A DNA stretch of 27,543 bases from positions 1 through 27,543 of the IMG/VR virus record IMGVR_UViG_3300017786_000102; one strand, 5' to 3'. This document shows positions 1-20,359 of the stretch, one piece after another. Made by a program: the position numbers and the translations under genes. This stretch comes from a virus. Numbering within the stretch: the first letter of the stretch is position 1; each line of letters starts with the position of its first letter. A model generated the notes under the pieces. That model saw nothing but the letters and a program-made list of their open reading frames with translations. It had not been told where the DNA came from and made no database searches.

Positions 1-3000
1 CTTCAGTATCTTCTATTATAGCAGTTGCGTAGCCATCAAAATGAGTAGTGCCAGCTGAAGCTTTTTTAATGTGTAACTTAGTAGCTGGAGCAGTTGTTCC
101 AATACCAACACCACCACCGTCATTTCCATGTGCAACAAAAAGTTTAATATTAGGACTACTTAATGCGCCTGTAGTAATACCAATACCATTAGCAGTAGGA
201 CCACCATGTCTAATAATCCCTTCTCCAGAAGCAGAGCTTCCTAATCTTAAACCAGAAATCATACAACCAATACCATTAACTTCTAGTTTATTAGAAGGAG
301 CAGCAGTATTAATACCAACGTTGCCGTCTTTATCTACCAGCATATGAACAGCAGAGTCATTCATAATTCTGAAGTCAGCCCTACCAGTTCCAGCAAATGA
401 CCTTACTAAATCAAAGTAATGGTCTCCATTGGTATCTGAATCTTGGTAAGCAAATATTCTATTATAGTTATCATCAGCATATAATTTAATAGCTTGGTTT
501 GATGTTCTACCAACAGAAAGAGTTCCTGTCCCATCTCCTGTGTAAAATTGTGCATGCTTATTTGAAGCCCATGCATTATCGCCTAAACTATATGTCCAAG
601 TAGCATTTGCACCATCAACTGTAAGACCAGCACCATTTGCGGCCGTTGCATTAGCCGCGCCTTTGGCAACTGTAATATTTAAATCTTCTACATCAAGCGT
701 TGCTGTATTTAATGTTGTCTGTGTTCCATTAACTGTTAGATTACCCGCAACTACAAGACCAGTTGAGTTTAATTGTAACTGCTCTGTTCCAGCAATATCA
801 AATCTTATGATATCTTCATCAGCAGTTTCTTCTACTTGAATTTTTGTATCGCCATCATTATCTTCAATAGATGAACCGCCACCCCCGGATCCACCCCAAA
901 TTAATGAAGTGCCTGTAGTAGGAACTTTAAGAACTTGACCTGCTGAACCAATAGTAGTTGGGAATGTGAATGCACCATTAAATGTAATTGAACCGTCTGA
1001 AGCAATAACAAGCCTTTGAGTTCTATTTGTATAAAACTCCATTCTATTATTGGGATGATTATATGATATTCTACCTGCATCGTTATTATCATTATCACCA
1101 AAAAATAGATTACCGTTATGTGAACTATTTGACATGATAGATATACCATGCGCACCAGTTGTATTACCTACTTGTAAATCGTCTGCATTAGCATCTGAAA
1201 AGTTTGTTGCATTTCCAATATTTACACGGCCTGATGAGTCTATTCTGACTTTCTCACTGCCCTGTCGTTGCCAAATATGAGCATCGTGAGCGTTGTAGTA
1301 AAGTTTAGCACCTGACGTTAAAGCATTTATTTGACCATTATTATTGACATCTTTAAGGCTTACAATACCAACATTAGCAGTACCTGAAAGGTGAAGGTCT
1401 TTGAATTTAGCACCAGGGTCTCCTAAAGTCGTAACCCCGTTTTGGCTAGGATATATTTCATCAAATTGATCTGCAAATATAAGGTTTGTGCCAGAGCTGC
1501 CACCCACACCCATCATTAACTTGCCACTTGAAACAGTACCAATAGTTCCAACTGTTGAGTTGTCTTTTCTGAATAAAAGTATATCACCATCACTAGTTAG
1601 GCGATTTAAAAGTAACACATCTCCACCATCTCTAGTATGAGTTGAAAATCCTGTTGCTCTAAAACTAGAACCTGCGGTATTTGTATAATCTGAAGTAGCT
1701 GTTTGATTTACCAACAGATTACCTGATGAGTCTATTCTCATTCTTTCAGTTCCACTAGGATTAAAATGATAATCAAGAGCATCAAAATCCATTGACTGAT
1801 AAGTTGAAGCATTTCTATCGTAAGCAAATAATATTACTCTATCGTTTGCTGTTTGTGGATTAATTTCTAGTCCTGCACCACCAGCATCTGAAACATGTAA
1901 TTTACCAGCAGGATTAGTAGTACCGATACCAACATTTCCAGTTTCACTAATAACCATTTTTTGAGATGGCGCGCCAGAAGCTTCTGCAGCTGATGTTGTC
2001 CAGAATCTTAATTCGTTACTTCCATCATTGCTACTAGTACGAATGCCTTGAATACCTGACCAGTAAAGGGCGGTATCATTATTACTAGCTGAAGAGTCAA
2101 ACTTAATACCAGCGCCACCACCGGTAGCATTAGTGCCTGTCATTCTATAAAAAATATGCTTGGGTGAAGAAGCCATAGTATTAGATAGTTCTAATAAATG
2201 ACTTGGCGAAGTCGTTCCAATACCAACAGAACCATCAGCGGTAATACGCATTTTCTCAGTATTATTAGTACCAAATAATAAACTACTGTTCGCAATATTG
2301 GTAACCTGCGCGTTGGTCGCACTTAATTGTAAACTACCTACTAGTCTAGCCCAACCTTGAACATGCAGCTTAATGCCATTGGCCGGACTAGCAGTGCCGA
2401 TCCCAACATTAGCAGCAGTATTAATAGTAATTGCTTCAGTTGAAGTTCCATCAGTAGCACCTGTTGTAGCTTCAATAGCGGTCCTTGCATTTCCACTACT
2501 GTCACTTTTAATTTTAAATCCTGATTGCCAATGACTACTATTTCTTGCGCCAGCCTGGATAATAATACCACCATTTTGATTAGCTGAATAGTTAGCACCA
2601 CGAACAACTAATTTTCCATTTGGATCAGTCTCATTTATACCCATATTACCAGAACTGTTTATTCTAACATCTTCACTACCACTTGAAAAGAATCTAACAT
2701 TACCAGAAGAGCCTGGGTATAAAAGTATGTCACCTACGTATACGGTATTCTGCTGTCCAATCTCAATGTTATTATTTGATGCATGACCAATAATTTTTCT
2801 TAGATACGAATTATCATCAGAATATATGTAGTCATTTTTTTGAATTACGAGTCCTGCATCAGTCTGAGTTTCTTGACCAGATGAAAATGAACCACCTTCA
2901 GAAACAATTGCTCCATCTACTTGTAATTTAGCACCTGGCGAATTTGTTCCAATACCCAACCCAGTAGAGTTTAATACCATATCAGCATCAGTACCATTAT

Positions 3001-3415
3001 TAGATGTGGTATCTACCATAAATCTAATTGATGAATTAGCTGCAGCCCCATTGATATCAGCAGATAAAACTAAATGGCCATTGGTATTAGTTATTCTGTT
3101 AGTTGCTACTGAGTCTTGTAATAGTATGCCAACAGTTGTATCGGTTGATTGAAACCTCGCGAGGTAATCTAGAGATGATTTTACATGAAATTGCGCGGTT
3201 GGGGTAGTAGTACCAATACCGACACGACTATTCGCACTATCAATGTGCATGATAGTATTATCGTGTCCAGTAATTATTGTTCCGTCTGATTTTTTAAAGT
3301 AAAGGGCACCGTCGGCAGTGTTGATTGCTAATTCACCTTCATTAAGGTCTGCACCGCCTGGAACGGCATTTGCGACGTTTGAGCGTCTCAAACGTATATC
3401 TGATTTTCTAGCCAA
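1..3415 (-). CDS. Giant tail-fibre-like protein, N-terminal 1138 residues (3' end beyond window)
   Basis: Reading the minus strand from a TTG at 3415 gives an uninterrupted frame to the left edge (1138 codons), so the gene is 3'-truncated by the window. The TTG start is chosen because GGAGAAG lies about 9 bases upstream, an in-frame TAG sits five codons before it, and the next in-frame ATG is some 50 codons on. The product begins MARKSDIRLRRSNV and then has a GELAINTADGALYFKKSDG stretch, a common N-terminus of marine phage fibres. The body holds about eight GIGTxxPxxKLHV-like motifs and one GNLTVNGTQTTLNTATLDVED cassette related to modules in the 499- and 2590-residue fibres. Proteins of this build often end in an S74 chaperone domain; here that end is outside the window. 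It is probably a host-recognition fibre or fibre-like virion protein; the exact position on the virion is unknown. It has its own late-promoter-like box and leader. Confidence 0.85.
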   Translation of the reverse strand, partial: MARKSDIRLRRSNVANAVPGGADLNEGELAINTADGALYFKKSDGTIITGHDNTIMHIDSANSRVGIGTTTPTAQFHVKSSLDYLARFQSTDTTVGILLQDSVATNRITNTNGHLVLSADINGAAANSSIRFMVDTTSNNGTDADMVLNSTGLGIGTNSPGAKLQVDGAIVSEGGSFSSGQETQTDAGLVIQKNDYIYSDDNSYLRKIIGHASNNNIEIGQQNTVYVGDILLYPGSSGNVRFFSSGSEDVRINSSGNMGINETDPNGKLVVRGANYSANQNGGIIIQAGARNSSHWQSGFKIKSDSSGNARTAIEATTGATDGTSTEAITINTAANVGIGTASPANGIKLHVQGWARLVGSLQLSATNAQVTNIANSSLLFGTNNTEKMRITADGSVGIGTTSPSHLLELSNTMASSPKHIFYRMTGTNATGGGAGIKFDSSASNNDTALYWSGIQGIRTSSNDGSNELRFWTTSAAEASGAPSQKMVISETGNVGIGTTNPAGKLHVSDAGGAGLEINPQTANDRVILFAYDRNASTYQSMDFDALDYHFNPSGTERMRIDSSGNLLVNQTATSDYTNTAGSSFRATGFSTHTRDGGDVLLLNRLTSDGDILLFRKDNSTVGTIGTVSSGKLMMGVGGSSGTNLIFADQFDEIYPSQNGVTTLGDPGAKFKDLHLSGTANVGIVSLKDVNNNGQINALTSGAKLYYNAHDAHIWQRQGSEKVRIDSSGRVNIGNATNFSDANADDLQVGNTTGAHGISIMSNSSHNGNLFFGDNDNNDAGRISYNHPNNRMEFYTNRTQRLVIASDGSITFNGAFTFPTTIGSAGQVLKVPTTGTSLIWGGSGGGGSSIEDNDGDTKIQVEETADEDIIRFDIAGTEQLQLNSTGLVVAGNLTVNGTQTTLNTATLDVEDLNITVAKGAANATAANGAGLTVDGANATWTYSLGDNAWASNKHAQFYTGDGTGTLSVGRTSNQAIKLYADDNYNRIFAYQDSDTNGDHYFDLVRSFAGTGRADFRIMNDSAVHMLVDKDGNVGINTAAPSNKLEVNGIGCMISGLRLGSSASGEGIIRHGGPTANGIGITTGALSSPNIKLFVAHGNDGGGVGIGTTAPATKLHIKKASAGTTHFDGYATAIIEDTE

Positions 3416-3421
3416 TTTTGA

Positions 3422-3428
3422 CTTCTCC
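3422..3428 (-). promoter_or_regulatory. Ribosome binding site that fixes the TTG start of the giant fibre
   Basis: GGAGAAG on the minus strand, with 9 bases between GGAG and the TTG at 3415-3413. It is the only purine-rich SD match ahead of this frame and the in-frame TAG at 3430-3428 overlaps it, which rules out a start further upstream. Confidence 0.75.
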
Positions 3429-3436
3429 TATTTCAA

Positions 3437-3486
3437 TCTCTATATAGAGAATTTAATAAATTTATTTACATTCACATATATATGTG
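3437..3486. repeat. Three consecutive perfect palindromes in the fibre leader
   Basis: Three perfect palindromes lie in a row: TCTCTATATAGAGA (3437-3450), AATAAATTTATT (3455-3466) and CACATATATATGTG (3473-3486), separated by 4 and 6 bases. As RNA, the outer two can form 5-bp stems with AUAU loops. They lie between a late-promoter box and the ribosome binding site, so in the predicted mRNA the first begins about 5 bases after the 5' end and the last ends about 9 bases before the SD. The role is unknown: mRNA stabilisation, translation control or protein binding are all possible. Confidence 0.8.
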
Positions 3487-3495
3487 TTATAATAC

Positions 3496-3503
3496 TATTT
3501 ATA
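3496..3503 (-). promoter_or_regulatory. T4-type late promoter box upstream of the giant fibre
   Basis: Exact TATAAATA on the minus strand in the 116-base gap between the 499-residue gene and the TTG-started fibre. With T4 late spacing, transcription would start near 3490 and give a leader of about 75 bases. This match to the T4 late consensus falls in non-coding DNA, which makes chance less likely than for copies inside genes. Confidence 0.65.
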
Positions 3504-3531: not shown

Positions 3532-5031
3532 TTAATAAGTACCACCATCAATAACATCAGAAGATATTGGATTTCCTGAGGCATTGAATTGAATAATATC
3601 GCCTTCTGAGCCAGTTAAGAAGCTAATTGCTGTTCCTGCTGCGTTAGTAACAAATACAGCATTTCCTGTAAATGAGCTTAAACCAGTACCACCGTGTGCT
3701 ACTGCTAAGTCTGTACCTAATACAAGAGAACCAGAAATATCAACATTATCGTTAATATCAATTGTACCACTAAAGGAATCTAATACTAGATTACCAGCTG
3801 TTGTACTAATCTTATTATCAGAGCTTATACCTAAATCTAAAGCTCCAGCATATACACCACCGAATTGAGCATCATGCCATGGTGAAGAAGCATCTTCTCC
3901 GCCACTAAAGTCTTCATCCTTTGTGAATACAAATCTTTCTGTTTGATGGTCAAAACCAAAGAATCCTTCTTTAGTGTTAGTTCCATCACCATACTTGAAT
4001 CTAACTCCTCTATCAGTACCATCGACAGCAGTACCACTATTATCGGCAAGTACAATTACTGGATCATCAAGAGTAATTGTCGTAGATTCTACAGTAGTAG
4101 TTGTACCTTGCACAACTAGGTTACCACCAACTGTTAGTGTGCCAGCAGTACTTACTGTATCTGCAGGATTATTACCAAGAGTTACATTGCCATCTACACT
4201 AAATGCTCCACCAACAGAAGCAGCACCAGTTACTGTTAATGCATCGCCAATTGTTACATCATCTGGAAGTCCAACAGTGAGTGTTACAGTACTTCCTGAT
4301 TTAGCTGCATTTGTTACAATCTCATTTGGAGTTCCAGAAACAGTTAAGTTATCTGTAAGTAAATCAACACCACCAGTTCCAGTATCACCATTAACAGTTA
4401 GAGCTGTTGCTACATCAACTTCACCAGCTGCTGTTAATTGTCCTCTAACGTTTACTGTAAAGGTTGGAATTTTTGTTTGTGATCCATAGTCACCGGCTGT
4501 TACACCAGTGTTTGTAATAGAAACAACTGATTCATTATCACCATCGTCATTGGCAACTGTAATACCAGCTCCACCAGTTACCGCTCCACCAACAGTATCA
4601 TAAATAAATTCTTCTAGAGTATCTGTTCCACCATTGATATAAACGTTATGTAATATTAATTTACCACTGCCATCTGGATCAATTATAATATTACCATTAG
4701 TGTTTGTTGAACTTAAAGTGTTACCATCTAATCTTAAATTATCAACATTTAATCTGTCAATTTTTGAATTAGAATCTGTAATAAGAGCACTAGAAGCTGT
4801 AAGTGTTCCATGTACATGATCTAAAAGATTTGTAAAATACTGACCGCCAATTACATCAACACTAGATGCAATTCCATTTGTTTCTGAACCGGTACCGATA
4901 TATAATCTATCACCGTTATTTGCTTGAGTACCTGCTACATATGAGTATGCAAGTTCGCCCGTCTTAATATTACTAGGGGCATCAGTAGTGGCACCGGTCG
5001 TTAATATTTTGATTCTTGTTAAATTAGCCAC
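3532..5031 (-). CDS. Fibre-like virion protein of 499 residues
   Basis: Starts with GTG, whose G is also the last base of the TAG stop of the upstream 72-residue gene (TAGTG), with AGGAGG 9 bases before it. The sequence is beta-rich and low in charge. An N-terminal KTGELAYSY/DRLYIGTG stretch resembles the GELA N-terminus of the giant fibre. A GVTAGDYGSQTK element and a VVQGTTTTVESTTITLDD cassette both have relatives in the 2590-residue fibre. Near the C-terminus is AHGGTGLSSFTGNAVF, a motif common in fibre ends of marine T4-like phages, and the protein finishes in DGGTY. No S74 chaperone domain is present. It is likely a short fibre or a baseplate-attached appendage. The family role is inferred from motifs and position; the assignment to a T4 counterpart is not possible from sequence alone. 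Confidence 0.8.
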   Translation of the reverse strand: MANLTRIKILTTGATTDAPSNIKTGELAYSYVAGTQANNGDRLYIGTGSETNGIASSVDVIGGQYFTNLLDHVHGTLTASSALITDSNSKIDRLNVDNLRLDGNTLSSTNTNGNIIIDPDGSGKLILHNVYINGGTDTLEEFIYDTVGGAVTGGAGITVANDDGDNESVVSITNTGVTAGDYGSQTKIPTFTVNVRGQLTAAGEVDVATALTVNGDTGTGGVDLLTDNLTVSGTPNEIVTNAAKSGSTVTLTVGLPDDVTIGDALTVTGAASVGGAFSVDGNVTLGNNPADTVSTAGTLTVGGNLVVQGTTTTVESTTITLDDPVIVLADNSGTAVDGTDRGVRFKYGDGTNTKEGFFGFDHQTERFVFTKDEDFSGGEDASSPWHDAQFGGVYAGALDLGISSDNKISTTAGNLVLDSFSGTIDINDNVDISGSLVLGTDLAVAHGGTGLSSFTGNAVFVTNAAGTAISFLTGSEGDIIQFNASGNPISSDVIDGGTY

Positions 5032-5602: not shown

Positions 5603-8600
5603 TTATTTATTTATATCTTTTAGGCTTTCAATCTCAGCTCTAAGTAATTTATTTTCTTCTCTTAGTTCTTTAATTGCTTCAACTAAAAGCGAAGTAACCT
5701 GTGAATATTCAACTGTTTTATATTCTTGATCGTCATTAGCTTTAAATGGTAAACCTTTCTCTTTAACAGCAGACGGTAATACTTTTTCTACATCTTGTGC
5801 TATCAAACCAGCTGAATGTTCGCCATCTTTTTTCCAATCAAAAGTAACACCTTTTAATTGCGATACTTTATCCAAAGCATTATCTACAACTTGAATATTT
5901 TCCTTTAATCTTTCATCAGAAACAGTAGTTGAGAATGCAATTACATCCCCGTCAACATGAAGATCACCATCATCTTCAAGTCTCATTTCTTCAGCATTTG
6001 CAGTATAGAACCTTAGTCCATGAGAAGCATCAGCGAAAATATAATCATGAGTATTACCACCAATGTAAATATCTTCATTTGAATATTGTGACCTTCGGTC
6101 ATTATGTAATTTTATTGTAGCGGTATTATTACTACCTGAAACATCAAAGCCTTTCCAAAAATTCAATGCAAAAGTATCTGTTTTTGTGTCTGCGGCACCG
6201 GCTACTTGATTTACTGGTGATTGAGTAGCTGAATCATACTCATTAACATTAAAATATGCATATGCGTTTTGGTTAACTTCAGCAGTTGTTGCAATACTAA
6301 ATGTTTCTGTTCCAGGTGTTAATGTAATATTCGTTCCGGCAGTAATACCAACATCGTGCGAAGTTCCATTAGACATGCTATGACGTAAGATCATATTAGC
6401 GCCATTATCAACAGTAGACACATCATTTAAGAATTTATCAGTATTTGGATTAGACGGCATTGTAATAGTTTTTGTATTAACGCCTGTCACGTGACCAGTA
6501 GCATTTGTTGTAACACCATCAACTATAGTAAAGCTTCCACCAAATGAAGTTGTTGCTGAGCCATTTGTAGTATTAGTTCTGGTTGTTCTCTTATGTGAGA
6601 ATTTTAAATCATAAGGATCAGCGTCTGAACCAGTTGATGTATCACTCCAATTAATATTAATATAATTATCACCACTAGCGTTGATAGCATCTTCACCTTC
6701 TACAAACTTCCATTCTTTACCTTGGCTAATTGTAACTTCATGACCATCTCCGTCTTCAACTTGGAATGTTGTTAACTGATTCGTATTACTATCTGACCAT
6801 GGCACGTTAACAACTAAGTCGCCATCACTATCTGGCATTACAGCGTATGTTCTATTTGCTGTGGTTGAAATACCTTGAGCAGTTACATTTCTTAGTGTAT
6901 CACTAATAAGATTAGCTTTTAATGTTTGTACATGATCTCCAGAATTAGTAGTAACTGATCCAACTAAACCAACACCAGCAGTAATAGCAACTTTTGTAAT
7001 ATCACCAACGTTTGATGTCCAACCTTGATCGTTATTAAAGTCGCTTAATGTAATTGTGCTAATTTTCTTTTTCTTCTGTACACCATTATCTAGGATTGGT
7101 AAAAAGTCTTGTGTACCCACGATTGCGGTAGCATCACCCATATTGGTGAGTTCATTCAGATCTACATTGATTGTAATATCAGTTTCAGTTGCTTTATCAG
7201 CAGTAAAATCACCACCTGTAATTGTTAGATCAATCAATGAACCTTCATTAATGTCTAATGTACCATTATTTGGTACTGCGCCAGCAGGCATTGTAAACTG
7301 AGTCGTATTGACACCAGTGATATGACCTTGAGCATTAGATGAAACACCAGTTATTGCAGAAAAAGTACCTTGATAAGCTAGAGTAGCTGTGCCCACACCA
7401 GGATCATTTCTTCCCACATCAGAATGTTTAACCTGTAGTGTATGATTTTCACCAGCAACAGTAGTTACATAATCAGTCGAAATTGCAGTTCCGCCCCTAA
7501 TACCTAGAGTTTCATTTTTAGTAATAGTGGCCTGACCATTATCATCAACTTCTACTTTAAATGTTGTTTTATCAGCATCGTCATCAGCTCTTGAGAAGTT
7601 TCTGATTGTTAATGCTGTATCGCCTTCAGCGTATTGCCATCTATTATCAGATTCATTCCACTTAATATAAGCATTTACATATGAACCTCTTTCAACTTCA
7701 ACAAATGAATCTTGAGTTGGAGTTGAGTTTGGCTGATCGCTATTAAGAATAATTTTGTTATCAGATATTTTTAATGTTTCTTGGTTAACTGTTGTTTGTG
7801 TACCTTGTACTTCAAAATTACCTCTAACAACGATATTATTTGTTGCGCTTGTATTACCTATATAGACTGTTCCATCAACTTGAGCCAATCTTGCTTCTAA
7901 GTTTGCCTTATTAACATTAACGTCAGTATTAGTGTCAGCGCCATGAATATTAAATTGTCCAGCATTTGTATACGAAACAGTAACTGTACCAGAATCGGTA
8001 ATTCTTACATCATCATTTACACCATCATTAAGTCTAAGAATCACATCGTCTGCATCAACTCCCGAGTTTACAGCTTGAAACGTTGCAGTTCTTTGCGAAG
8101 TGAGGAATCCATGATTGCTATCAAGATTGACAGTAACAGTATTTCCGCTTCTTACTGTATTAATTTTATTACCACCAGCAATATCTACAGTCTCATTTGA
8201 ATCAATTTGTGCAGTGCCACCAGAATCAGCTGTTAAATGCCAATTGTCATAGTTATCATATCTATTATCGAAGTCATCAGCGGTAATAGCAGTAATATGT
8301 CCTCTAGAATCAACTGTTACTGATTTAATATACTTACCATCTTCTACGCCTGATTGTCCATAGTCACCAGCAGTAACACCTGAAACTGGGTGACCAAAGC
8401 TAACTTTATTATTTGATGCAGCAGCAAACGATGTTGTTAAGAATCCATCATCACCAAAGTTAACAACGCCATTAACATTTATATCAGCCTTTTTAGTACC
8501 TTCAACATAAAGATCCCAGCCATCATATCCAAGATTAGAAAGAGTTAATTGCCTTTTTGCAAATGTACCATTAGCATCAACGACATGACCTAGTGTATCT

Positions 8601-11600
8601 GTTTCTATATTAAAGTCTAAATCTGAAAGGACCCATGCACCAGTCATTGCTCCGGTATCAATATCAATGTCATCACCGGCATATGTTGGGTGCGCATAAG
8701 TATTATTGATAGTAAGAGTTTGACCAGTTACAGATGTTGATATATTTGTACCACCGGCAATAGTTAATGTATCATCGTTGTTATCAGCAACTGCTGTTCC
8801 TGAGTCGCCTGATACATTTTTAAATATAAATTGTGAAGAACCTTTATCACTGTTTTTAATAGCAATTACATCGTCTGCAGGAGCACTAAATTGAATACCA
8901 CCGTTTTCTCTTAATATTAATGTATCATTATTGTTATCAGCAATGGCACTCGCTACTACATTAGTATTTGATCTTTGTGTTTGTACAGTTTTAAATATTT
9001 CCTGAGCAGAACCTTTATCATTATTAGCTAAAGTGATAGTAGCATTTCCAGATTGGTTAGCGGTAAACGTACCGGTACCAGTCATACCCGATCCACCTTC
9101 TACAGTTAGAGTACCATTACCAATAGTAACAGATCCTGTAGATGCTGTAGCTCCAGTAACGTGACCAAAGTCGTCAAACGTTAAAGATAAATCTTGAATA
9201 AACGTATTACCACCATTATTTTGAACAAGATCTACTGGTTCTGCAACAGCTTCATGAGCAATTGTAATTGTCGATGTACCATTTGAATGAGCATTTGATA
9301 AAGTAATATGATCACCGCCAACAAAGTTAACAGTATTTTCATTCTCTACTTGATCTACCTGTGTACCACCTTCTTGCAATACCCAGTATGGATTAGTTGC
9401 CTGATATCTAGTATCAAAGTCACCAGTTGTAATTGCGCTAATGTGACCTTCAGCTGTAAGTGTAAGTGATTTAATATACTTACCATCTTGAGCATTTACT
9501 TGACCAAAATTACCAGCAGTGCCTGTAAATACATCAGCATGAGATAAAGAAAGAATTTGAGTTCCTGCATTAGCAGAAACATTTACTACGTTATCATCAG
9601 TAAATGTGAGGGTGTCAGCATTACCATCGGCTTCAATAGTAACTGCCCCAACTAAAACATTTTTAAATATATCTTGCGATGAACCTTTATCTGTATTAAC
9701 ATAATTAGTTACAATTGTAGCACCAGTCTTAGTTACTGTTTCACTTAGACCTGAACCAGCGCTGAATGTTAAGTTATCAGATGGTCCAAAATCAACGCTT
9801 TCAATTTGAGGAGGATTAAGTGTAGCGGTTGAAAGAATTAGAGCTCCATCAGCTTCCCATCTACCATAAGTACCGTCACCATTATCATGACCATAGTTAT
9901 ATACAATACTGTGTGCGCCAGTTACGTTTGAAGCAACGCCGCTTGGACTTGTAATTGGGCCAACCTCAAGACCAAAACCACCAGTTGAAGGTTCAGATGT
10001 TAAACCGTTTCCAGCCAAGACCAATGTGTCTTCGACTGTTAGTGTTTCAGTATTAAGTTCAACAGTATCGCCTTCGACGTAAAGATCACCGGCAACATAT
10101 AAGTCTTTTCCAATACCAACACCGCCTGTAACAACTAATGCTCCAGTAGATGTTGAACTTGACGCAGTACTATTTAATATACTTGTTATCCCATCAATAG
10201 TAACAGTACTATTTAAATCAGTATGACCATCAACTCTAGCAGTTCCTAGAGTAAAGAAGTTACCACTAGCTGCCGTAACTTTAAACTTATCAGCGCCACC
10301 TGCACCAATTCTAAAGTTACCATCAACACCGGCTGTACCGTCAACAGAAAGAGTTCCATCGATCTGTGTATTACCATTTGATCCAGTGACATTAAACTTA
10401 TTATTGCCAATTCTTAAGTTGCCATCAACGCCTAAGTTTTGAGCAATCGTAGTCGCTCCTGTTGCTGCAGCAACTTTAAATTTAGCATCTGAATATTCTG
10501 TACCACCAATTCTAAAGTTACCATCAACACCTAAAGTTGAATTAAGTTCAGTAACTCCATCAACTGTAAGAGTTGAATTTAAATCAGTTGCTCCGTCTAC
10601 GTTTAATGTTGTATCAAAATCTACTGCTGATTGGACATTAAGCGTTCCATCAATTTGTGTATTACCGCTTGTTGCTGTTACATTAAATTTATTAGAACCA
10701 ACTCTTAGATCACCATCAATACCGGTATAGCCATCAACTTCTAATGTGCCATCAATTTGTGTATTGCCATTTGCCGCATTAACATTAAATTTATTATTTC
10801 CAACTCTAAGACTACCATCAATTCCGGCTGTACCATCAACTTCTAAATTATTTTCAACTGTAAGATTGTTCTTAAATGTTCCATTGGTATTATTTGCTAT
10901 GAAAAACTCTTGATTAGCTCCAGATCTAAGAGATAATTGAGCAGAACTATGTGTAAGTCTACCAAATTCATTACCATCATCTTTCAATACAATATGATTA
11001 TTGCCCGTATCTAAATTAATATTAGATGAGGAATTAATTGTAAATGTTCCTGAAGTTATATCAAATGCATTAGCGCCAGCAGTAATTTCATGAGTTGAAG
11101 CGTCGAAGACTCCTTCAATTTCATTAATAGCGCCAACTAAGAAATTAGCTTGTGTGTCAAGAGTAACAGAACCGGCGGTATGAATATCATCATATATTTC
11201 ATTAATAGCGTCTAGGATCGAAGTTTTGTCTGCTGTTTTAAGATCAGACATTTCTCTTCTAGATCCGCCAGATCCAGCATTACCAGAATTAAATATATCA
11301 GCTTCTATTTCGTTAATCGCGTCAACAATGTTTGTATTAGTTGTGTGAAGGGATGTTAAAGATCCACTTGTATTAATATCATCATAGATATTTTTTATTG
11401 CTGTACTAATATCACCGCCTTGAGCTGAGTAATCAGTAAGACCAATTTCTAAATCTAGGACATTTACTGCGCCTGTTAGTGAAGTCGAATCAGCATCATC
11501 AACCGGGCCAGCGTTATCGAATACCATATCACCAATTTGAAATTCGTGTTCATTAATAGCGCCTTTAACATTATAAGCAGCAGTATTAAGACCATAATTT

Positions 11601-13375
11601 GTTCTAGCAGATGTATCTGATTTTAAGAAACCTTCGAACTCATTGATTGCTGCAATAAGGTTATGGCTATTTGTGTTAAGATCATAATTTGTTCTTGCTG
11701 TATTATCATCTCTAATTACATTTTCTAATTCATTAATTGCTGATACAGCATCGGTGGTAACATTAGTATCTAATGTAGCATGATTACCAAGTTCAGTTCT
11801 TAGTTCCTCAACAGCCTCTTTAAAATAATCAGCAGATAATCCAGCAAATGATACCCCAGTACCATTAACAAAAAGTTCGCTATGAATTTCATTAATAGCG
11901 TCTAGGATTGAAGTTTTGTCTGTGGTTAAAAGATCAGATCTAGTTCTTTTTGTTGCGCCTTCACCATTAAACAAATCTTCTTCTAATTCATTAACAGCTT
12001 CGGTAAGATCATCAGCCGAAGTGTGAAGAGCAAGATCACCAACTTCTATATGAAGTTGCTCAAGTGCTTTCGAAATAGTATTATCAGTAGAAGAGATTGT
12101 GTGGAAATTAGTATGATTACCAATCTGATCTTCATGTTCTCTTATTGCTGCAGTTAGATTAGCAGCACCATCAGTTCCTAAGTTAGCAAGAGTAACATCC
12201 CCAACTTCTGCATGTAATTGATTCAGAGCACCGGTAATTGTGTTATTAGAATCTCCAGCATCAACAGTGCTAATACTTTCATTACCAATTTGATCTTCGT
12301 GTTCTCTAATAGCAGTTTCTACAGTTGAAGCTGTTGTACCCATTGCTCCAGCAGTAATTGTTCCAAGTTCAGCATCGTGTTCATTAATTGCTAGAACTAA
12401 GTCATTAGCAGCAGTTGTTAAACTTTCAACTGTACCAATATCATCCTGTAATTCGTTAATTGCAGCTACAAGATCTAAAGAAAAGAGTTTAATTTGATTA
12501 GCATTAGATGCTGGAGTAGTTAATTGTACATATGTTCCATACGTGTTATCAACTTCAACTAATGGGCCGTGGTTAGATCCAGTAATAGTATTACTACTAC
12601 CTAATGCTCTAATTAAAGTTGAAGCATTAAATGAACCATTATAAGTTTTAACTCTTATAACACCATCAGATACAGAATGCAAAGTACCATACCAAGAAGC
12701 GTTTGACTCAACGTCAGATTGAGTAGTTTCGCTTGACCCCTGATAAATTGTAACGCCTTCTGTATAATTTGTTAATGTTGGAGATCCAGTTTGAGTAATA
12801 GTCGCTTTAATATTTGCGACATGGAAACTATTAGGACCTATTCCTTGAGTAAGCTCTGTTCCAGCATTGTAAACTCTTACGATACCAACAGGATATGATT
12901 CAGTTACAATTCTAATTACATTTGCGCTATCAACTGTATCTGGAGAAGTGGCTCCAACTTTAAGATCAGATGATGTACTAAATACGCCAGAAGAATCTCT
13001 TACAAGAATTTTATCAGCAGTTGCTGATACAATATAAGCTTGCCAACTTGGAGTTCCACTAGTTCCTTGATAAATAACAGCATCTTGAACATATGATGCA
13101 TCAAGAGAAGAAACAGATTCTAGAATAATATAACCAGAAGTATTATCAACAGTATGAGCTGGACTAGTCTCAAATCTGGCTGTTTTTGCTGGAGACGAAG
13201 TATCAGAACCAGCAAAAAGTGTTTGGCCGGCTGATGCTGAATAGACATATGTCTTATCAGCCATTAAAGCATTAAGTTGCTCATTATCACCTAAGTGAAG
13301 AGAAATTTCGTTTGACTTTTGTCTAAGTTTCTCTAGTGTGTCCGTTTTATAAATTCTAGTTTCTTTGTTAGCCAT
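5603..13375 (-). CDS. Very long tail fibre (2590 residues) with C-terminal S74 self-cleaving chaperone
   Basis: ATG overlaps the stop of the 74-residue gene (TAATG). Domains in order: an N-terminal beta-rich region (1-300) with YPVGIVRVYNAGTELTQG, probably the virion-attachment end; 17 AINE-type helical repeats (about 299-759); a run of KFxVxAxxGNTQIDG beta modules (about 851-1051); then a long beta-repeat shaft with three DKGSxQxIFKxV units, two DGKYIKS...GHIxAIT...DFDxRY units and two GTxTTVNxETL-type cassettes. The C-terminus is a peptidase S74 domain starting at SDERLKENI. Ser2486 and Lys2491 match the known Ser-Lys dyad spacing, so self-cleavage before Ser2486 is expected after trimer folding. 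GLIAQDVEKVLP and a terminal coiled coil follow. It is probably the main long host-recognition fibre; trimerisation is inferred from the family. Confidence 0.92.
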   Translation of the reverse strand: MANKETRIYKTDTLEKLRQKSNEISLHLGDNEQLNALMADKTYVYSASAGQTLFAGSDTSSPAKTARFETSPAHTVDNTSGYIILESVSSLDASYVQDAVIYQGTSGTPSWQAYIVSATADKILVRDSSGVFSTSSDLKVGATSPDTVDSANVIRIVTESYPVGIVRVYNAGTELTQGIGPNSFHVANIKATITQTGSPTLTNYTEGVTIYQGSSETTQSDVESNASWYGTLHSVSDGVIRVKTYNGSFNASTLIRALGSSNTITGSNHGPLVEVDNTYGTYVQLTTPASNANQIKLFSLDLVAAINELQDDIGTVESLTTAANDLVLAINEHDAELGTITAGAMGTTASTVETAIREHEDQIGNESISTVDAGDSNNTITGALNQLHAEVGDVTLANLGTDGAANLTAAIREHEDQIGNHTNFHTISSTDNTISKALEQLHIEVGDLALHTSADDLTEAVNELEEDLFNGEGATKRTRSDLLTTDKTSILDAINEIHSELFVNGTGVSFAGLSADYFKEAVEELRTELGNHATLDTNVTTDAVSAINELENVIRDDNTARTNYDLNTNSHNLIAAINEFEGFLKSDTSARTNYGLNTAAYNVKGAINEHEFQIGDMVFDNAGPVDDADSTSLTGAVNVLDLEIGLTDYSAQGGDISTAIKNIYDDINTSGSLTSLHTTNTNIVDAINEIEADIFNSGNAGSGGSRREMSDLKTADKTSILDAINEIYDDIHTAGSVTLDTQANFLVGAINEIEGVFDASTHEITAGANAFDITSGTFTINSSSNINLDTGNNHIVLKDDGNEFGRLTHSSAQLSLRSGANQEFFIANNTNGTFKNNLTVENNLEVDGTAGIDGSLRVGNNKFNVNAANGNTQIDGTLEVDGYTGIDGDLRVGSNKFNVTATSGNTQIDGTLNVQSAVDFDTTLNVDGATDLNSTLTVDGVTELNSTLGVDGNFRIGGTEYSDAKFKVAAATGATTIAQNLGVDGNLRIGNNKFNVTGSNGNTQIDGTLSVDGTAGVDGNFRIGAGGADKFKVTAASGNFFTLGTARVDGHTDLNSTVTIDGITSILNSTASSSTSTGALVVTGGVGIGKDLYVAGDLYVEGDTVELNTETLTVEDTLVLAGNGLTSEPSTGGFGLEVGPITSPSGVASNVTGAHSIVYNYGHDNGDGTYGRWEADGALILSTATLNPPQIESVDFGPSDNLTFSAGSGLSETVTKTGATIVTNYVNTDKGSSQDIFKNVLVGAVTIEADGNADTLTFTDDNVVNVSANAGTQILSLSHADVFTGTAGNFGQVNAQDGKYIKSLTLTAEGHISAITTGDFDTRYQATNPYWVLQEGGTQVDQVENENTVNFVGGDHITLSNAHSNGTSTITIAHEAVAEPVDLVQNNGGNTFIQDLSLTFDDFGHVTGATASTGSVTIGNGTLTVEGGSGMTGTGTFTANQSGNATITLANNDKGSAQEIFKTVQTQRSNTNVVASAIADNNNDTLILRENGGIQFSAPADDVIAIKNSDKGSSQFIFKNVSGDSGTAVADNNDDTLTIAGGTNISTSVTGQTLTINNTYAHPTYAGDDIDIDTGAMTGAWVLSDLDFNIETDTLGHVVDANGTFAKRQLTLSNLGYDGWDLYVEGTKKADINVNGVVNFGDDGFLTTSFAAASNNKVSFGHPVSGVTAGDYGQSGVEDGKYIKSVTVDSRGHITAITADDFDNRYDNYDNWHLTADSGGTAQIDSNETVDIAGGNKINTVRSGNTVTVNLDSNHGFLTSQRTATFQAVNSGVDADDVILRLNDGVNDDVRITDSGTVTVSYTNAGQFNIHGADTNTDVNVNKANLEARLAQVDGTVYIGNTSATNNIVVRGNFEVQGTQTTVNQETLKISDNKIILNSDQPNSTPTQDSFVEVERGSYVNAYIKWNESDNRWQYAEGDTALTIRNFSRADDDADKTTFKVEVDDNGQATITKNETLGIRGGTAISTDYVTTVAGENHTLQVKHSDVGRNDPGVGTATLAYQGTFSAITGVSSNAQGHITGVNTTQFTMPAGAVPNNGTLDINEGSLIDLTITGGDFTADKATETDITINVDLNELTNMGDATAIVGTQDFLPILDNGVQKKKKISTITLSDFNNDQGWTSNVGDITKVAITAGVGLVGSVTTNSGDHVQTLKANLISDTLRNVTAQGISTTANRTYAVMPDSDGDLVVNVPWSDSNTNQLTTFQVEDGDGHEVTISQGKEWKFVEGEDAINASGDNYININWSDTSTGSDADPYDLKFSHKRTTRTNTTNGSATTSFGGSFTIVDGVTTNATGHVTGVNTKTITMPSNPNTDKFLNDVSTVDNGANMILRHSMSNGTSHDVGITAGTNITLTPGTETFSIATTAEVNQNAYAYFNVNEYDSATQSPVNQVAGAADTKTDTFALNFWKGFDVSGSNNTATIKLHNDRRSQYSNEDIYIGGNTHDYIFADASHGLRFYTANAEEMRLEDDGDLHVDGDVIAFSTTVSDERLKENIQVVDNALDKVSQLKGVTFDWKKDGEHSAGLIAQDVEKVLPSAVKEKGLPFKANDDQEYKTVEYSQVTSLLVEAIKELREENKLLRAEIESLKDINK
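5606..5920 (-). other. Peptidase S74 intramolecular chaperone domain of the 2590-residue fibre
   Basis: Encodes residues 2486-2590. SDERLKENI carries Ser2486 and Lys2491 (spacing of five), the catalytic pair known from phage endosialidase-type chaperones. GLIAQDVEKVLPSAV and VEYSQVTSLLVEAIKEL are the typical following motifs, and the last 30 residues form a heptad coiled coil. In the family this domain drives trimer folding and is then released by autocleavage. Confidence 0.9.
5608..5615 (-). promoter_or_regulatory. Probable late promoter box for the 113-72-499 gene trio
   Basis: TATAAATA on the minus strand overlaps the last codons (Asp-Ile-Asn-Lys) of the 2590-residue gene. With T4 spacing, the transcript would start near 5602, leaving a 12-base leader that begins AGGAAATG and so contains the SD. 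The fit to a gene boundary is good, but the box overlaps coding sequence and could be chance. Confidence 0.5.
10225..10825 (-). repeat. Tandem KFxVxAxxGNTQIDG beta modules in the 2590-residue fibre
   Basis: Five copies of a pattern with an R(V/I)G line, then KFxV, then a GNTQIDG-type turn, spread over fibre residues of about 851-1051, two of them degenerate. Between them are short DLNSTLTVDG-like strands. They look like a beta-helical shaft built by repeated duplication. Sequence divergence at the DNA level is moderate. Confidence 0.75.
11196..11232 (-). repeat. Copy A of a 37-base near-identical direct repeat
   Basis: Thirty-seven bases match 11886-11922 with a single difference (C at 11219, T at 11909). 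Both copies encode DKTSILDAINEI within the AINE array and the protein similarity extends further upstream, which points to a fairly recent internal duplication or recombination. Confidence 0.8.
11886..11922 (-). repeat. Copy B of a 37-base near-identical direct repeat
   Basis: Partner of 11196-11232, lying 690 bases away in the same frame of the 2590-residue fibre gene. See that entry for the match. Confidence 0.8.
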
Positions 13376-18965: not shown

Positions 18966-20359
18966 AATTCGATAATGATTTTTATATCTTCGATCTGTGA
19001 AGCTGTTCTATCAATTGGATTTCTATTTTCTAAAAAGACAATATCACCACTATGTATATCAACTTCAGGATTAATTAGAAAATCTCCAGCAACGGGTTTT
19101 GGCGTTCCTTCAGCTGAAGATGTGGAACCAACTACTGGAGCTCCAGTTACAAAGTTTCCATATCCAGTTTTAGAATTTTGTAGATAATGTACATAACCAG
19201 TACCACTATCAACTTCAACAACAAATGCTTGAGCTAAAGTTGCCCCACTACCTTGAGTAATTAATTCATCAACTTGAAATGATTGTGTTGTTGAAGAAAA
19301 ACTTAAAGCTGGAGTTGCTTTTAATGTTGGCTCAATTGACTTTGTAGAAGTTCCAAAATTAAATGGGTTTTTAACGAGTGTAATTTGTCTAAAATCATTA
19401 CCAGTAGTTAGATCGCCACCACCAGTTCCATCTAGTAAAGTATTAACAGCTGAAAAGAAACCACCAAGTTCTTTTACAGGATCAGTACCATGCCCATTTT
19501 CAGGAGCAAGTACTGCTCTTACTGTGGCTAATGTACCACCGCCACCATCGATAACAATATGAGCTGTTGAATAATCAGTTCCTTTTGCTGTAACATTAAC
19601 AGCAGTAACAGATCCACCTGAAACAACGGCAGTTGCAGTTGCTCCAGTACCAGCACCAGTAATATAAACATTAGGAGCTGAAGTATAACCGCTACCGCCA
19701 GCTGTTACTACGATTCTTTCAATACCAGCAGCAGTTGTAGAATCCCTTGACGCTTTTTGGTTTAGATATTGAGCGTAATCACCTTCAGATAAAGAAGTCT
19801 CAGCAGCTGCATCATTTGCAAATGATTCAACATTAATAGTTTTAACAGGCATATAAGATGTTGTAAGGAATTTTTCTGCATCGGCGACGGCTACCGTATA
19901 CATATATTTCCAAATATAACCATCAGATTCCGCTGTTGGAGCAGTCAATGTTTGTGTTGGCTCTTGAGTCGAACCAGTTCCAGGAGAGTATATACATTTA
20001 TATACTTTAAACTCTGATGTAATTACATAAAAAGCAACATCAAAAATATCAGCATTATTTGAATCCCATTGAACATATGAAGTACCAGTAGTCCAAGTAT
20101 GTCTTGGTACCACGTGTGTTACATCAGCAGCATTTAATTTTTTTAATGCAAAAATGTTTTCACGAGCTTCTACTAATGCATCAGTTGTATCATATGGAGT
20201 AAATGGTTCTGTATCAGTAGTGTCTGAAGTACTATTTGACCATGCGTCGGTTTTACCGATTGCTACGTATACGCTAGAGCCAGAATTTGCAGTATCGATA
20301 TCTTCTTTAAAATTTTCTGCGTTTAAAGTTCTAAATTTTGAGGTTATAATTGCCGTCAT
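18962..20359 (-). CDS. 8: Baseplate wedge subunit gp8
   Basis: Start ATG with AGGAAAG about 6 bases upstream. The protein matches T4 gp8 at many points in order: AIITSKFRT at the N-terminus, VAIGKTDAWS, VVPRHTW, FKVYKCIY, DGYIWKYMY, DFRQITLVKNP, and a C-terminus SGDIVFLENRNPIDRTASQ...IIIEF that lines up with the T4 ending. In T4, gp8 forms dimers in the wedge, bound to gp7, gp6 and gp10. At 465 residues it is about 130 longer than T4 gp8. The surplus lies in two insertions: a GGSGYTSAPNVYITG-type beta module at about 212-290, and a segment at about 345-435 with DSGTGYVHYLQN between the FRQ...NP and ENR motifs. It follows gp7 by 32 bases. Confidence 0.93.
   Translation of the reverse strand: MTAIITSKFRTLNAENFKEDIDTANSGSSVYVAIGKTDAWSNSTSDTTDTEPFTPYDTTDALVEARENIFALKKLNAADVTHVVPRHTWTTGTSYVQWDSNNADIFDVAFYVITSEFKVYKCIYSPGTGSTQEPTQTLTAPTAESDGYIWKYMYTVAVADAEKFLTTSYMPVKTINVESFANDAAAETSLSEGDYAQYLNQKASRDSTTAAGIERIVVTAGGSGYTSAPNVYITGAGTGATATAVVSGGSVTAVNVTAKGTDYSTAHIVIDGGGGTLATVRAVLAPENGHGTDPVKELGGFFSAVNTLLDGTGGGDLTTGNDFRQITLVKNPFNFGTSTKSIEPTLKATPALSFSSTTQSFQVDELITQGSGATLAQAFVVEVDSGTGYVHYLQNSKTGYGNFVTGAPVVGSTSSAEGTPKPVAGDFLINPEVDIHSGDIVFLENRNPIDRTASQIEDIKIIIEF

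Follow-up and report, generated by a model that had tools for sequence, protein, structure and literature searches.

The question raised by this locus is what function is served by the palindrome-bearing leader that precedes the tail-fibre gene of a virus. The window, which is the whole stretch of DNA analysed (27,543 nucleotides), is a 27.5-kb virus fragment whose minus strand encodes T4-like baseplate and fibre proteins. Among named phages, Pelagibacter phage HTVC008M is the nearest to the gp8-like baseplate protein of the window (36% identity), and the gene encoding this protein contains a perfect 16-bp palindrome, ATCATTTGCAAATGAT, at positions 19811-19826. A protein of 2590 aa is encoded at 5603-13375 (minus strand), and its C-terminus (SDERLKENIQVVDNALDKVSQLKGVTFDWKKDG...AGLIAQDVEKVLPSAV) presumably resembles the peptidase S74 intramolecular chaperone domain. 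The tail-fibre gene (2..3415, minus strand; 1138 codons) extends past the window edge and has PHROG tail fibre matches. Its N-terminal domain (MARKSDIRLRRSNVANAVPGGADLNEGELAINTADGALYFKK) is conserved in the N-terminal alignments A1 and A3 and has neither a Pfam family match nor a PDB relative. The gene begins with a TTG codon (3415-3413, minus strand), which is kept in all close relatives of the fibre gene, and is separated by 116 nt from an upstream structural gene of 499 aa (3532..5031, minus strand). No other gap in the window exceeds 32 nt, in agreement with a preliminary description of the DNA in which the 116-nt gap was called the only sizeable one.

In transcript order, the minus-strand leader contains a predicted T4-type late promoter element (TATAAATA, 3496..3503), a palindrome termed HP1 (CACATATATATGTG, 3473..3486), a middle palindrome (AATAAATTTATT, 3455..3466), a palindrome termed HP2 (TCTCTATATAGAGA, 3437..3450) and the Shine-Dalgarno sequence AGGAG (3425..3429), followed by the TTG start; the preliminary description had located these parts correctly. 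HP1 would form a 5'-terminal hairpin (CACAU-AUAU-AUGUG) and HP2 a hairpin shortly 5' of the Shine-Dalgarno sequence (UCUCU-AUAU-AGAGA). The palindrome set (three of at least 12 nt, two of them of at least 14 nt) was rarely reproduced by the dinucleotide-preserving leader shuffles that had been proposed as a check (10 of 20,000; P ~5e-4, post hoc test). The sequence TATAAATA is not by itself enriched in the window (7 seen vs 5.55 expected); it lies directly before HP1 in 25 of 29 aligned relatives, and HP1 is predicted to begin a few nucleotides past the late transcription start. On the promoter consensus only, the fibre gene is predicted to be late. The aligned relatives retain a Shine-Dalgarno site of the GGAG type. 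Nothing in them corresponds to the middle palindrome, which is probably a chance occurrence outside the element. HP1 and HP2 were rejected as intrinsic terminators, as neither is followed by a U run in the window or the aligned relatives. A leader peptide that would stop at the TAG next to the Shine-Dalgarno sequence was also rejected, as its frame is not consistent.

The relatives were selected by protein alone, with the upstream 499-aa gene first, the fibre N-terminus second and the leader unseen, and 29 leaders were aligned (alignment A4). The close group keeps the gene order, the TTG start, AGGAG and the leader, although identity among its upstream proteins is only about 50%. Over HP1 and HP2, 97.4% of the cells in the 29 leaders are paired, 70 cells are changed on both sides, and changes on both sides are seen in 8 of the 10 pairs. 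The covariation score of the two hairpins is 0.617, compared with 0.174 after shuffling and a maximum of 0.178 in slid registers. Both sides change in four of the five pairs of HP1 (98.6% of cells paired), whose stems in relatives are CACA/UGUG, GGUU/AACC, CCUG/CAGG, CCAG/CUGG, UCAG/CUGA, CCGU/ACGG, CUGU/ACAG, UCGU/ACGA and CUAA/UUAG. The HP2 stems in relatives are CUC/GAG, CCC/GGG and UCC/GGA plus extensions, with covariation among CTCT/AGAG, CCCT/AGGG, TCCTT/AAGGA and CTCTT/AAGAG. This covariation shows the stems of HP1 and HP2 to be base-paired in the predicted RNA. The compensatory changes that the preliminary description had asked for are present in the outer two hairpins, and its view of these as matching hairpins with a common loop was borne out. 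Its leader of three palindromes stands for the first and the last, which are conserved as RNA hairpins, but not for the middle one. The exact 17-mer CTCTATATAGAGATTGA has 33 matches in IMG/VR (2.9 million contigs), 31 of which lie directly before this fibre gene. The two matches found elsewhere (L075 and L093) share sequence with each other and have no fibre-like start downstream.

The palindrome had been taken as the conserved unit; the relatives point instead to an RNA hairpin with the tetraloop ANAU (AUAU, ACAU, AAAU, AGAU), nearly always closed by a U-A pair, whose loop is self-complementary only sometimes. A loop variant, UNAU, is rarer, and a C-G closing pair occurs in some Rhodobacterales prophages. 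Among all 4096 hexaloops, enrichment is highest for TATATA (43 seen vs 1.8 expected in all fetched loci), followed by TAAATA. Non-palindromic sense loops of the form TA[ACG]ATA are flanked by at least three pairs in 44 of 88 cases in fibre leaders and in none of 123 cases in control genes, and the reverse-complement loops TAT[CGT]TA of fibre leaders have a stem in none of eight cases. The stem-bearing sense loops are TACATA, TAAATA and TAGATA, whereas their complements are never stem-flanked. Because the loops occur in one sense only and the stem sequences are free, RNA would be the functional form; as judged from these sequences, the leader is an RNA element and not a symmetric DNA operator. 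Kissing of HP1 and HP2 through self-complementary UAUAUA was rejected, as the HP1 loop varies (UAAAUA, UAGAUA, UACAUA, UUAAUA) while HP2 is unchanged. Use of the HP2 arm as an anti-Shine-Dalgarno toggle (CUCU/GGAG) was rejected as well; it is possible in the clade of the window, whereas the GCG/CGC and GGC/GCC stems of other lineages are incapable of it.

A third hairpin with the same kind of loop, absent from the preliminary description, covers the TTG start (HP3, AGUCA-AAAU-UGGCU; 3410..3423, minus strand). RNAalifold placed GCCA-AAAU-UGGC over the TTG of the 29-leader alignment unprompted, and HP3 was also obtained in the single-sequence fold; in the window, a U-G pair takes the place of C-G. 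The UUG start is made up of the last loop base and two stem bases, and the N of the loop varies in relatives (AAAU, ACAU). The fixed TTG start is possibly a consequence of this hairpin. In relatives starting with ATG, the start codon lies within the loop, as in GCC-ACAU-GGC, GUC-ACAU-GAC (L373), AGUC-AUAU-GACU (L376) and GGC-ACAU-GCC (L394, L405). Start-codon hairpins that carry this type of loop and a stem of at least four pairs occur at 33 of 129 fibre starts vs 2 of 691 control genes, and re-dealt downstream sequences gave a mean of 10.4 and a maximum of 20 against the 33 observed. The common GCC...ATGGC composition partly yields such stems, the re-dealt controls accounting for about one third. 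A leader hairpin is present too in 31 of the 33 fibre starts with a start-codon hairpin (Fisher P 1.5e-5). The copies are separable, since the late promoter and HP1 have been lost and HP2, the Shine-Dalgarno sequence and HP3 kept in contig IMGVR_UViG_3300017739_000004 (L007/L205). Upstream of related fibre genes at L112, L115, L125 and L126, CCTATATAGG overlaps the Shine-Dalgarno sequence itself (CCTATATAGGAG) and appears to represent HP2 in a shorter-stemmed form whose position would conceal this sequence.

Of 129 distinct fibre starts from viruses, 83 have a leader hairpin of at least four pairs. The control set, taken from ten phage genomes, yielded such a hairpin at 9 of 691 genes, and two of these nine also encode fibres; fibre starts from bacterial genome contigs have it in just 13 of 60 cases. 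The fibre genes that carry it begin M..IKLKRSAVAGKVPTT..L.LGELAINTYDGKLYLKK and belong to genomes of very different kind and base composition, including those of marine and freshwater phages, GC-rich freshwater ones among them. Isolates with the element are P-SSM2, S-B05, DSL-LC02, DSL-LC03, S-CAM9, S-PRM1, S-8S55 and the siphovirus S-CBS2. P-SSM2 contains AGCAGU-AUAU-ACUGCU and, farther downstream, the three-pair GGU-ACAU-ACC; S-CAM9 and S-PRM1 contain CCGAU-AAAU-AUCGG, and the hairpin loop of S-8S55 is UUAU. In a whole-genome census of S-B05, DSL-LC03, S-CBS2 and several IMG/VR genomes, GC-bearing intergenic copies were found before this fibre gene only. A general late-gene element was rejected, as whole genomes place the copies at the fibre gene only and the genome of HTVC008M has none. 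The hairpin is missing from about one third of the fibre starts that have this N-terminal domain, often because no intergenic gap is present. In Limnohabitans phage DC31 (L596), whose fibre N-terminus reads K-K-S, the place of the ANAU hairpin is taken by a terminator-like hairpin that has a run of T residues. These comparisons show that the putative element is associated with a single fibre-gene family and recurs at the translation start. No Rfam match above the gathering score was obtained for the window or ten relatives, the best sub-threshold match being unrelated, and no earlier description was found in the open-access literature.

That a single loop recurs in three places (the 5' end, the Shine-Dalgarno side and the start codon) points to a translational repressor that reads the loop. 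It is moderately likely that the leader, with up to three copies of the ANAU hairpin, is a translational operator for a loop-specific RNA-binding protein. Each unit would consist of a free-sequence stem of 4-8 bp, mostly closed by U-A, and the tetraloop, and the copies would be placed at the mRNA 5' end, shortly before the Shine-Dalgarno sequence and over the start codon. A protein that reads ANAU would bind the copies and hide the Shine-Dalgarno sequence and the start codon, and the bound copies would set the dose or timing of the fibre late in infection. Taken singly, the hairpins have little stability (-1.3 to -3.2 kcal/mol), so that the blocking of ribosomes would probably depend on a protein bound to them. 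The hairpins probably act as a switch, so far undescribed, that turns fibre production on and off. A translation switch or protein-binding sites had been suggested for this leader before; the comparative data fit that suggestion, but the middle palindrome on which it partly drew is not conserved and the copy over the start codon had been missed.

The hairpin promoters of phage N4, which are DNA promoters for the virion RNA polymerase, have a free-sequence stem and a conserved loop. These features are shared by the hairpins described here, which are however oriented RNA elements that follow a late promoter and are located by the Shine-Dalgarno sequence and start codon. The copy over the start codon is reminiscent of the MS2-type coat protein/replicase operator, a hairpin spanning the start codon whose loop (ANYA) is specifically recognized by a virion protein. 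The MS2 operator belongs to an RNA phage, has a bulged stem and represses another gene, whereas the present hairpins belong to DNA phages, have no bulge, carry ANAU and are repeated. RegA, which is encoded by HTVC008M, likewise exerts translational control at phage start regions, but its sites are unstructured initiator sequences without a fixed-loop hairpin. The nearest known case is the operator of gene 43 (DNA polymerase) of T4 and RB69, a hairpin with the conserved loop UAAC (UAAA in RB49) at which translation is repressed by the gene's own product (PMC3014915). It is also a short conserved-loop hairpin upstream of a gene start in a T4-type phage, but it is present as a single copy at a replication gene, whereas up to three copies, including one at the start codon, are found here in several phage types, and the binder is only a candidate. 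Identity with the T4 gp43 RNA operator was rejected, as a fibre gene and an ANAU loop are found in place of DNA polymerase and UAAC. In T4 gene e (lysozyme), stem-loops of the start region sequester the ribosome site in early transcripts (PMC3014915); this is likewise RNA structure at the ribosome site of a late gene in T4-type phages, but without a conserved loop family. As in operators, HP2 adjoins the Shine-Dalgarno sequence and HP3 covers the start codon. In a survey of pelagimyophages, middle and late promoters were not found by cyanophage methods, and hairpins are not mentioned (PMC7029224).

A structural leader without a specific binder, in which HP1 shields the 5' terminus against RppH/RNase E and HP2 holds the ribosome site accessible and spaced, is considered unlikely. 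Hairpins at the 5' terminus are known mRNA stabilisers (ompA), HP1 starts 1-23 nt (mostly 4-12) past the late promoter element where a leader has one, and promoter and HP1 were lost together in L007/L205. However, a stabiliser needs no conserved ANAU loop, as GNRA or UUCG, which are absent or nearly so, would do; a start-codon copy would impede initiation, and HP2 persists where HP1 is lost. A pure 5' stabiliser, as raised in the preliminary description, leaves the hairpins at the Shine-Dalgarno sequence and start codon and the conserved loop unexplained. The usual position of the element, flanked by two tail genes of which the upstream one often ends in DGGT[FY], would suit a processing signal whose loop is read by a host or phage endonuclease; cleavage would then part the fibre message from that of the tail genes upstream. 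Such a role is quite improbable, as many copies lie at a 5' end downstream of their own late promoter and a start-codon copy would be senseless for processing.

The orientation of the loops and the free stem sequences, which leave no fixed protein or recombination site, argue against a site acting at the DNA level, such as an operator, a cruciform or a recombination site for fibre-gene exchange. This explanation is very improbable, although the palindromes lie at the edge of a hypervariable fibre module in which the leader and N-terminus are conserved and the remainder of the fibre varies; a host recognition cluster has been described (PMC7029224). Hardly any credence can be given to a low-complexity coincidence in an AT-rich leader. 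The middle palindrome is probably one, and the leader of the window folds only slightly better than its shuffles (z -0.96), but the compensatory changes, the presence of the element in GC-rich freshwater phages and the contrasts with control genes count against it, and for HP1 and HP2 coincidence is refuted by the covariation.

For the preferred reading, a translational operator, the fibre protein itself may supply the binder, since the element travels with its N-terminal domain across unrelated phages. This domain is the constant companion of the hairpin across phage types and is a candidate, or lead; a search of Pfam and PDB gave no known RNA-binding relative. A second loop class, GNUU (GCUU, GUUU, GAUU), occurs at the same position with at least seven different stems and was first found only in one subclade, in which K-Q-S replaces the N-terminal K-R-S. 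Position 9 is Gln in 10 of 10 GNUU carriers vs Arg in 124 of 124 ANAU/UNAU carriers of the set compared, and it is the sole perfectly separating column of 44. Scanning coding regions for the K-Q-S pattern gave two more GNUU stems, L568 (ggccaGCTTtggcc) and L583 (cgcctGTTTaggcg); the other GNUU hairpins before K-Q-S fibre genes are at L355, L356, L359, L365, L414-L416 and L496. A strict rule linking Arg to ANAU and Gln to GNUU was rejected, as it is broken by a separate K-Q-S (Gln) lineage (MAGTVVKIKQSS), whose hairpin retains the AUAU loop and contains G-U pairs. L385 and L555 have a KRS N-terminus and other loops. The link between Gln and GNUU looks like one evolutionary event. It is a tentative and on balance doubtful proposal that the fibre adhesin is its own translational repressor and that the subclade switched the code to GNUU. 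The basic N-terminal domain (IKLKRSAVAGK...LGELAINTYDGKLYLKK) would dock on the virion tail, and its free form would bind the ANAU hairpins of its own mRNA; once the docking sites were full, fibre synthesis would stop by autogenous repression.

Little is known of how the number and timing of receptor-binding phage fibres are controlled, particularly in uncultured phages of the ocean. The leader described here would provide an RNA element that is compact, widespread and readable as a code made up of a free stem and an ANAU loop at defined positions. The element can serve as a sequence marker of fibre genes in metagenomes and possibly represents a new RNA-protein recognition module, and its presence in culturable phages (P-SSM2, S-CBS2) makes regulation of the fibre dose directly testable.
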